From contig CANMBF010000029.1 of the NCBI GenBank assembly GCA_947496065.1, positions 1-32,105 of the forward strand: a DNA stretch of 32,105 nt. The letters run 5' to 3'. Positions 30,231-32,105 of the stretch are shown piece by piece. Source of the stretch: Bacteroidota bacterium. Its GTDB lineage: Bacteria; Bacteroidota; Bacteroidia; NS11-12g; UBA955. Below the pieces are notes generated by a model that worked only from the letters and a program-made list of their open reading frames with translations, was not told the DNA's origin and ran no database searches. The number at the start of each line of letters is the position of its first letter. Position 1 is the stretch's first letter. A program made the translations under genes and the position numbers.

Positions 30231-31076
30231 TTGAAAGCAATAGAACAACAACAAATCGCCATCAATGGCAGTAGAGATAAAAAAATCACCTTAGACCTTA
30301 CCCTACCTAATAGTAAAGTTAAAACCCCTGTGGTTATATTCTGCCATGGGTTCAAAGGGTTCAAAGATTGGGGCCATTTTAATTGGTTAGCTAGCGAATT
30401 TGCCAAAGAAGGATTGGCCTTCTTGAAATTTAATTTTTCTTATAACGGTACTACTGAATCTCAGCTCATCGATTTAAGCGATATGGAAGCTTTCGCTCTA
30501 AATAATTACACCACAGAGTTCAATGATTTAGGTGTGGTGATAGATTTTGTTGATAAAGAATCCGAAACTTATAATCTTGATAAAAACGAAATTTATTTAG
30601 TCGGTCATAGCAGAGGAGGCGGCATCGCCATGCTCAGAGCGAGCGATGATAGAAGGATAAAGAAATTGGCATTATGGGCTTCGCTTTCAGAGTTCGAGAG
30701 TTTCTTTAGACCCGAAACCATCGCGCAGTGGGAGAAAGAAGGCGTAGTGTATGCGGTGAACAAAAGAACTGGTCAGAACCTGCCTTTGAACAAACAATTC
30801 TATGATGATTATTTAGCGAACAAAGAAAAGCTCGATGTGCGCAAAGCGGCTAAATTGTTAAGTGCTCCTTTGTTATTGGTTCATGGCGATAAAGATGAGA
30901 GTGTGCCAATGTCGCATGCCGAAGCTTTGTACAATATTGTGCAACATTCCATTTTAATCAAAGTAGAAAATGGCGACCATACCTTTGGGGCCAAACATCC
31001 ATTCGATGCAGCCAATGATGTGACAGAAATGTTAGAGGAGTTGGTTGAGAATACAGTGGAGTTTTTTATAGATTAA
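30231..31076 (+). CDS. Alpha/beta hydrolase (dienelactone-hydrolase/acyl-esterase type)
   Basis: The 281-aa cytoplasmic serine hydrolase has no signal peptide. The oxyanion region is VVIFCHGFKGFKDWG (about 34-48), the nucleophile elbow GHSRGG (125-130, Ser127), the acid HGDKDESVP (218-226, Asp222) and the His NGDHTFG (His250): a complete triad. The substrate is unknown. TTG at 30231 is the only sensible start, since the next in-frame ATG is past residue 80 and would destroy the fold. The TTG lies 5 nt after the -7 box. It is convergent with the YdeI-like gene, 13 nt between stops. Confidence 0.88.
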   Translation: MKAIEQQQIAINGSRDKKITLDLTLPNSKVKTPVVIFCHGFKGFKDWGHFNWLASEFAKEGLAFLKFNFSYNGTTESQLIDLSDMEAFALNNYTTEFNDLGVVIDFVDKESETYNLDKNEIYLVGHSRGGGIAMLRASDDRRIKKLALWASLSEFESFFRPETIAQWEKEGVVYAVNKRTGQNLPLNKQFYDDYLANKEKLDVRKAAKLLSAPLLLVHGDKDESVPMSHAEALYNIVQHSILIKVENGDHTFGAKHPFDAANDVTEMLEELVENTVEFFID

Positions 31077-31094
31077 TAAAAAACTTTTATTAAT
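31072..31094. terminator. A/T-only palindrome spanning both stop codons
   Basis: ATTAATAAAA (31072-31081), loop AAC, TTTTATTAAT (31085-31094): a perfect 10-bp inverted repeat containing the TAA of the hydrolase gene and, on the other strand, the TAA of the YdeI-like gene. It may act as a shared weak terminator. Confidence 0.4.
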
Positions 31095-31668
31095 CATTTA
31101 AGCCTTTTCCTTTAATGATTTGCGGGATGCATTTTTCAATGCGGTCCAATTTTGTTTTAGATTGTTTAGGGGCCGAGAAGTATAGCAGATAGACGCGTTG
31201 TCGACCAGGGTTCAATGCTTTAAATGCTATCTTTAAGGCAGGCATGCTGTCTAATTTATACTTGAATTCTTCGGCCATTTCGAATTCAGTAGGCGCTTTG
31301 AAAGCCACTTTTAAGCCGGCCTTTTCAACTTCAATCGCGTCCTTGATATAAGCATTTATGGCCGGCGCCAATTCCTGTACTTCAATCACATTGGTGAATC
31401 GAATCTGACGCGTAGCTTGTACATTTTTGGTTTGTTGTACCAAAATATTTTGAGGGTCTTTTAACAAAGCTCCTTTAAAAAATAACAAAGCACAATAGTC
31501 TTTGAAGGTATGTATCAATACAATATTACTTTCATTTAATTGGTAACATGGGCAACCCCATTTCAGTTCTTCTTTTAAACCGCAATCCAATACAAGCAAT
31601 CTTAATTGCTGAATCGCTAGTTGCCATTTGTCGGCTTTGTTAAAATAAAAATCTGTTTTGGGATTCAT
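31090..31668 (-). CDS. YdeI/OmpD-associated (DUF1801-like) protein
   Basis: The protein (192 aa) has an N-terminal DUF1801/YdhG-like domain (KWQLAIQQLRLLVLDCGLKEELKWGCPCYQ, then IHTFKDYCALLFFKGALLKDP). A C-terminal bacteriocin-protection/OmpdA segment follows at about 140-190 (FKYKLDSMPALKIAFKALNPGRQRVYLLYFSAPKQSKTKLDRIEKC). It is soluble and basic near the end. The family is widespread and its role is poorly known; one member was linked to antimicrobial-peptide resistance in Bacillus. ATG at 31668, following an A-run. The 31669-31753 stretch upstream is A/T-rich with no gene. Confidence 0.85.
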   Translation of the reverse strand: MNPKTDFYFNKADKWQLAIQQLRLLVLDCGLKEELKWGCPCYQLNESNIVLIHTFKDYCALLFFKGALLKDPQNILVQQTKNVQATRQIRFTNVIEVQELAPAINAYIKDAIEVEKAGLKVAFKAPTEFEMAEEFKYKLDSMPALKIAFKALNPGRQRVYLLYFSAPKQSKTKLDRIEKCIPQIIKGKGLND

Positions 31669-31753: not shown

Positions 31754-32105
31754 AGGTGAATGAGCCGCAGAGGGGTGGGCCAATCAACAAAATCAAAATG
31801 CTTTTACTTCGTAAAAGTTTTTATGGTCACAATAAAATTCATTCAAGCAAGCTTGGGAAATTTAATATGGTTAATTGTTATTCACCTAAAGGTGAATGAG
31901 CCGCAGAGGGTGTGCCAATTAACAAAATCAAAATGCTTTTACTTCGTAAAAGTTTTTATGGTCACAATAAAATGTATGCAAGCAAGCTTGGGAAATTTAA
32001 TATGGTTAATTGTTATTCACCTAAAGGTGAATGAGCCGCAGAGGGTGTGCCAATTAACAAAATCAAAATGCTTTTACTTCGTAAAAGTTTTTATGGTCAC
32101 AATAA
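31754..32105. repeat. Structured 135/136-bp tandem repeat, 2.6 copies, running off the window
   Basis: Copies start at 31754 (136 bp), 31890 (135 bp) and 32025 (81 bp to the window end). Each is bounded by AGGTGAAT ... ATTCACCT and has a second nested pair CAATTAAC ... GTTAATTG; in copy 1 the left arm reads CAATCAAC. Each also holds a perfect hairpin CTTTTAC-TTC-GTAAAAG followed by TTTTTA (31801, 31936, 32071). The two full copies differ at few positions. The units are not multiples of one frame and carry no credible gene. Unit size and lack of spacers rule out CRISPR. Confidence 0.9.

Follow-up and report, generated by a model that had tools for sequence, protein, structure and literature searches.

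The window analysed here, 32,105 nucleotides long, is the whole of contig C29 in a 79-contig draft genome of a Bacteroidota bacterium (G000). A gene for an alpha/beta hydrolase (30231-31076) and a gene matching DUF1801 and OmdA (YdeI-like; 31090-31668) are followed by a tandem repeat, which Tandem Repeats Finder places at 31754-32105 with a period of 135, 2.6 copies and a 97% match. The original prediction described a tandem array of a 135/136-bp element, and this is what is found: two complete units and 81 bp of a third, which is incomplete because the contig ends there (Table 1). On the plus strand, the order within the unit is HP1, a G-rich stretch, one arm of stem A, hairpin HP2 with its T-tract, a B arm, the HP3 apex and the other arm of stem A. 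The predicted nested 8-bp pair (the arms of stem A) and terminator-like hairpin (HP2) are present in copies 1 and 2, and the T-to-C change in copy 1 does leave an A.C mismatch on the plus strand and a G.U pair on the minus strand. The pairing of the proposed outer 8-bp terminal inverted repeats is likewise real; these repeats are, however, better described as one hairpin, HP1, which lies at the junction between units and covaries between species.

Table 1. Positions of the array units and their structural features in the window.
Feature	Position	Strand	Remarks
Copy 1 of the unit (136 bp)	31754-31889	-	Outermost; left hairpin degenerate; strand of the tRNA-Cys transcript
Copy 2 of the unit (135 bp)	31890-32024	-	
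Copy 3, first 81 bp only	32025-32105	-	Cut by the end of contig C29
HP1, first junction, TTATTCACC-TAAA-GGTGAATGA	31878-31899		T-arm-like hairpin of the family; from covariation
HP1, second junction, TTATTCACC-TAAA-GGTGAATGA	32013-32034		From sequence and covariation
GAGCCGCAGAGGGTGTGCC	31898-31916		Probable counterpart of the conserved GGGGnGGC / GCCnCCCC stretch; from its position between HP1 and arm A
Arm A, copy 1, CAATCAAC	31781-31788		Pairs with 31870-31877; G.U on the minus strand
Arm A partner, copy 1, GTTAATTG	31870-31877		
Arm A, copy 2, CAATTAAC	31916-31923		Pairs with 32005-32012
Arm A partner, copy 2, GTTAATTG	32005-32012		
HP2, copy 1, CTTTTACTTCGTAAAAG + TTTTTAT	31801-31824	+	Terminator-like on the plus strand
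HP2, copy 2, CTTTTACTTCGTAAAAG + TTTTTAT	31936-31959	+	
Arm B', copy 1, ATGGTCACAAT	31823-31833		
HP3 apex, copy 1, CAAGCAAGCTTG	31844-31855		
HP3 apex, copy 2, CAAGCAAGCTTG	31979-31990		

The evidence for the fold of this array is strong in its comparative part and moderate in the energy of a single unit, which folds only moderately better than its shuffles (z about -1.7 on either strand). In G000 and its congeners G014, G006 and G003, 100% of the HP1 cells are paired, with compensatory changes at two pairs, and the covariation score, obtained from five sequences only, was reached by 0 of 500 shuffles. The HP1 of the window is an enlarged hairpin in which the surrounding CGG, TCA and TAA residues are retained. 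In G003, HP2 is altered on both arms relative to the window.

Contig C41 of the same genome begins with two further copies of the unit (5-247 of locus L006), and these run up to a hairpin terminator, a tRNA-Cys(GCA) gene (L006 302-373, minus strand) and, on the plus strand, atpD (ATP synthase beta subunit, named by reading its sequence). Gene order in relatives suggests that C29 and C41 adjoin at this point, which would carry the array past position 32105, where the original prediction had looked for more copies, as far as the tRNA-Cys terminator. The array of G000 then comprises at least five copies or part copies between the DUF1801/OmdA (YdeI-like) gene and the terminator, and transcription of tRNA-Cys reads the minus strand of the window. 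In the tRNA-adjacent unit on C41, arm B' pairs with TATGCCACAA, which lies behind the tRNA-Cys terminator. The outer units of the array have no terminator and are missing arms A and B at their start.

Copies in relatives had also been anticipated, and congeners do share the array at this locus. In G003, one contig carries the alpha/beta hydrolase gene ahead of the array and another begins with the array, tRNA-Cys and atpD; G006 has the array with tRNA-Cys and atpD; G010 has a DUF1801/OmdA-like gene and the left edge of the array; and in G014 the array is short and resolved, and the gene to its left is a different one. Copies from one genome are nearly identical, and those from different genomes are not; unequal recombination that homogenises the array would produce this pattern, and such concerted evolution fits the recent amplification first proposed. 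The congeners G005, G007, G013, G015 and G016 have a canonical form of the element at tRNA-Cys (GGACCACCCCCTTACGGATCATGAAATAATCC in G013). Among the tRNA-Cys genes of nine congeners there are at least five arm-A sequences, each of which is best matched by its own partner.

A family of elements trailing tRNA genes

Searches with the unit, and then with the HP3 pattern, brought up the same anatomy behind tRNA-Ser genes (tga, gga and gct) in other species. Within G000 it trails the tRNAs for Arg(tct), Ser(tga), Ser(gct), Ser(gga), Asp(gtc) and Arg(ccg) as well as Cys, while the unit of the window itself is found only in the single tRNA-Cys array. The outer end of the element carries a conserved motif antiparallel to the tRNA, consisting of GGGATTACTnnGCGTGATCCC, a short spacer and GGGGnGGC. 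This pattern has 33 matches in 108 genomes of the order and none when reversed. A named collection of 84,980 species contains 95 such stretches; among the 80 of these that were listed, with titles sorted to phylum by hand, a convergent tRNA gene lies near the motif in 35 of 50 Bacteroidota matches and 0 of 30 from other phyla, mostly 70-300 bp away and once at about 610 bp. In a sample of 392 genomes of the phylum, a covariance model of the motif matched 7 under strict filters; the Cys array itself has diverged too far to match this model. The family is widespread in Bacteroidota but patchy. Its members in scattered Bacteroidota mostly follow tRNA-Ser, and their period is 82-195 bp, mostly 160-180. 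The family is absent from Rfam, and neither the window nor the related loci tested have a match at gathering level; permissive searches for self-cleaving ribozymes and other known RNAs returned weak matches far below gathering scores. In the literature we found a described counterpart in E. coli and no description of the Bacteroidota family.

The array of the window almost certainly belongs to this tRNA-trailing structured family, of which its sequence marks it as a diverged member. The stretch GAGCCGCAGAGGGTGTGCC has diverged from the canonical GGGGnGGC / GCCnCCCC, to which it is probably equivalent, as it holds the same position as in canonical members.

At 8 loci, the unit ends in an exact 17-19-nt copy of the 3' part of the local tRNA, starting from A58 of the T-loop; the tRNAs are Ser and Gln, one example is from Chryseolinea serpens, and in most of the 8 the sequences after the two copies are unrelated. 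Among cultured carriers is C. serpens DSM 24574, at its tRNA-Ser(tga) (L192). The Ser(gct) locus of G000 retains 16 of 17 nucleotides of the copy. Most other loci keep only AATCCC, the 3' arm of HP1, and in the window HP1 is followed only by AAC. At Ser(gct), G000 has two complete and different units in tandem, each starting from a tRNA 3' end, and several compensatory changes distinguish their arms. These two kinds stand in one order in G000 and G014 (L111 and L271) and in the opposite order in G006 (L270), which suggests recombination between units. At tRNA-Arg(tct) behind tRNA-Pro, a unit is present in some congeners and absent from others, and G003 has a putative tyrosine-integrase gene there, read from its sequence. 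These observations suit either duplication and recombination of the tRNA tail or the insertion of whole cassettes; an empty-site pair was not found among the loci compared.

Several related arrangements were seen near tRNA genes. Behind tRNA-Met(cat) of G000 (L105), the tRNA-Met 3' end and terminator stand in three tandem copies, in which a GGGTCCGCCGCGGCGGACTCCC hairpin occupies the position of the T-arm; this tRNA-tail repeat is simpler and has no four-way arms. Upstream of the unit at L227, small copies of HP1 are repeated in tandem with a short spacer (GGGGATTACTGGCGTGATCCCCATTGCAAATGCCATCGGGCATTTCC), and HP1 can therefore amplify without the rest of the unit. At L183 (minus strand, about 4190), the T-loop of tRNA-Ser(gct) is the exact starting point of an insertion (GGGATTCGAAC, followed by foreign DNA) that has separated a structured array from its tRNA. 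Near-identical DNA, with a palindromic trailer (CCGTGTC...GACACGG) and a GIY-YIG nuclease-like gene, lies behind tRNA-Phe (L099, contig C9) and tRNA-Arg(acg) (L103, contig C21) of G000, and tRNA-Leu(taa) (L096) is likewise trailed by a GIY-YIG-like gene. This looks like a separate mobile unit targeting tRNA 3' ends. We rejected a GIY-YIG homing nuclease as the mover of the family, the genes in question not adjoining its units.

Fold and strand of the units

Counted from the tRNA 3' end, the canonical fold consists of arm A in the tRNA trailer, the terminator hairpin, arm B with HP3, HP2 and the partner of arm A. This four-way cross, into which the tRNA-proximal element also folds, is followed in canonical members by GCC, a run of C and HP1, which resembles the T-arm of a tRNA. 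Statistics on arms, mismatches and fold energy were taken over 47 distinct tRNA-adjacent units. The pairing score of the arms has a median of 28 with their own partners and 0 with partners swapped between loci, and 98% of the real units lie above the 95th percentile of the swapped ones. The covariation foreseen in homologues is seen both in HP1 (five sequences) and in arms that match their own partners (47 units), and the fold is conserved while the sequence turns over. In L246, a GC-rich distant member, the four-way cross is kept without any U-tract, which indicates that the arms are no by-product of terminators.

Fold energies relative to shuffles have a median z of -8.1 on the tRNA-sense strand and -7.1 on its complement. 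Once corrected for composition, the difference is in favour of the sense strand in 38 of the 47 units (p=9e-7). Arm mismatches are G.U or G.A on the tRNA-sense strand in 66 cases and on the other strand in 11 (p=1e-10). By locus the counts are 30 and 5 (p=2e-5), and they are 51 and 6 without the class that selection on T-tracts could cause. In arm A alone, G.U and A.C are even (6 vs 5), the bias coming from arm B and the G.A pairs. This bias marks the tRNA-sense strand as the folded one, and we consider it very likely that selection acts on the fold of this strand. HP1 runs against the strand bias of the arms: in all members columns 6 and 16 of A2 hold an invariant T.G on the strand opposite the tRNA, which is C.A on the tRNA strand, a pair partly fixed by the search pattern. 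The mismatches uphold the original suggestion of RNA-level constraint on the minus strand, and strand-specific pairing indirectly supports its reading of the locus as a non-coding RNA array, which would be transcribed from that strand. RNA is the natural reading of the folded molecule; single-stranded DNA of the tRNA-sense strand would give the same bias.

Origin and role of the units

E. coli tRNA-linked repeats (TLRs), which include the tyrT repeats (RtT RNA, RF00391; RttR) and RrA, RrB and RrF, stand as one to five copies directly downstream of a tRNA or rRNA gene. Our best explanation is that the array forms the outer portion of a structured element trailing tRNA-Cys(GCA), one of a Bacteroidota-wide set of TLR-like elements; we hold this to be probable, and to about the same degree that the working molecule is a TLR-like RNA made by read-through of the tRNA terminator. 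Some polymerases would pass the terminator, and the extended transcript may fold into units and be processed to a stable RNA, by analogy with the E. coli repeats. Extra copies could arise by unequal recombination between units, which would also keep them alike. The most plausible use is that of a structured 3' external transcribed spacer, putatively binding a protein or an RNA. Several observations count against a read-through RNA, namely the C.A pair of HP1, the even split of G.U and A.C in arm A, the patchy occurrence of the family, the missing tRNA 3' copy in the window and the outer units that have no first A and B arms and no terminator. Intrinsic terminators on both sides would stop most polymerases before the fold was complete, and a single-stranded DNA intermediate would leave the strand bias equally well.

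That intermediate is central to the main alternative, which we think unlikely, in which the units are mobile DNA cassettes, gene-less and about 150-190 bp long, that insert into the tRNA T-loop and whose folded strand is single-stranded DNA. Each would bring its own tRNA 3' end and terminator and displace the old 3' end outward, with arrays being stacked insertions. The exact 17-19-nt direct repeats from A58, with unrelated sequence after both copies, the presence or absence of units at orthologous tRNA-Arg(tct), the swapped order at Ser(gct) (G000 and G014 vs G006) and the patchy distribution speak for it. However, an integrase signature occurs at only 1 of 48 loci, for which reason a prophage or ICE remnant was also rejected; no dispersed copies were seen away from tRNAs and no empty-site pair among the loci compared; the orthologous tRNA-Ser(gga) and tRNA-Cys units of G000, G003 and G006 look vertically inherited; and HP1 survives intact where decay has removed the tRNA copy. 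A more specific form, in which cassettes insert at A58, substitute for the tRNA 3' end and are recognised in the form of folded tRNA-sense single-stranded DNA, is slightly more doubtful still. If true, it would represent a new kind of minimal integrative element, with the E. coli TLRs as another branch. The copies of a MITE are dispersed, bear terminal inverted repeats and are flanked by target-site duplications. The 17-19-nt tRNA copy of fresh members could be read as such a duplication; the early idea of a MITE-like unit is supported only in part and not in the form proposed, the unit being confined to one array in G000 and its relatives sitting behind tRNAs rather than dispersed. A viral origin was also set aside, with no matches in viral contigs.

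The suggestion of a stack of terminators is right insofar as two of the hairpins are terminator-like: the tRNA terminator hairpin and HP2 have T-tracts on opposite strands in most members, and tRNA-Met of G000 has simple tandem terminator copies. Stacked or bidirectional terminators might insulate the tRNA gene and have been amplified since extra ones are harmless or useful. We regard this as improbable, and rejected a stack of intrinsic terminators as the identity of the array, since L246 keeps its four-way fold without U-tracts and a terminator needs neither the pairing and covariation of arms A and B nor the conserved HP1 and C-rich stretch. We give even less credence to a mutational by-product without function, in which slippage duplicates the tRNA tails and the long inverted repeats are kept complementary by template switching or gene conversion. 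The arms do turn over fast without losing their complementarity, even where two units of the same locus are compared. However, the inner hairpins (T and HP2) have not been homogenised with each other despite lying inside the palindrome, conservation of HP1 and the C-rich motif extends across the phylum, and strand-specific mismatches are unexpected from correction of double-stranded DNA.

A family with the TLR layout in a second phylum, whose fold is conserved and whose independent members are many, opens TLR function to comparative and genetic tests, and it provides strand-specific evidence that the tRNA-sense strand is the one that folds. Rfam would gain a structured family that it does not have, and a class of repeats that breaks short-read assemblies behind tRNA genes would be explained.

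Comparison with known systems

Like REP/BIME elements with RAYT transposases, the units are palindromic, intergenic and sometimes tandem. They differ in their link to tRNA 3' ends and in their length of 80-195 bp, whereas REPs are dispersed palindromes of 20-40 bp, and the GTAG/CGTC tags of REPs (PMC3733652) are not in the Bacteroidota motif. With integron attC sites and gene cassettes they share a structure conserved above sequence, one folded strand and stacked units; no genes lie between the units, though, and RYYYAAC/GTTRRRY core boxes are present in 0 of 47, on which ground an attC site was rejected. Direct repeats of the tRNA 3' end recall ICEs and prophages accreted at tRNA genes, and the same tRNAs are used (the putative integrase at tRNA-Arg(tct) of G003 and the Ser(gct) T-loop insertion at L183). 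The units, by contrast, are 80-195 bp long, with a conserved fold and neither genes nor integrase.

The E. coli TLRs have been known since 1978, and K-12 has 22 of them, spread over ten loci; each includes 18-19 bp identical to the 3' end of the tRNA or rRNA gene that precedes it. Three rRNA-linked ones bind Hfq and CsrA, they otherwise have no known function, and the E. coli relatives are read-through RNAs (PMC8144298). The RF00391 model gave four matches at E. coli tyrT, our positive control, and none in the window or the related loci tested. We describe the array of the window as TLR-like rather than as a TLR because the tRNA 3' copy is missing; exact identity of 17-19 nt is found at 8 related loci. 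The layout is common to both and the sequence is not, the phylum is another, and tyrT is without the four-way cross, the paired trailer arms and the C-rich motif. The likeness lies in a position behind tRNA genes in one to several tandem copies, which extends to the window array, ending as it does at the tRNA-Cys terminator. The periods are similar, at 178 bp in tyrT and 82-195 bp, mostly 160-180, in Bacteroidota. Read directly, the tyrT locus has a 19-bp repeat from A58 (AATCCTTCCCCCACCACCA), to be compared with the 17-19 bp of fresh Bacteroidota members. AGT precedes AATCC in Bacteroidota, as GAGT precedes the repeat in tyrT, and each has a hairpin that mimics the T-stem of the tRNA (GAAGG...CCTTC in tyrT). 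In fresh members, moreover, the unit lies between two terminators, as in the E. coli repeats.
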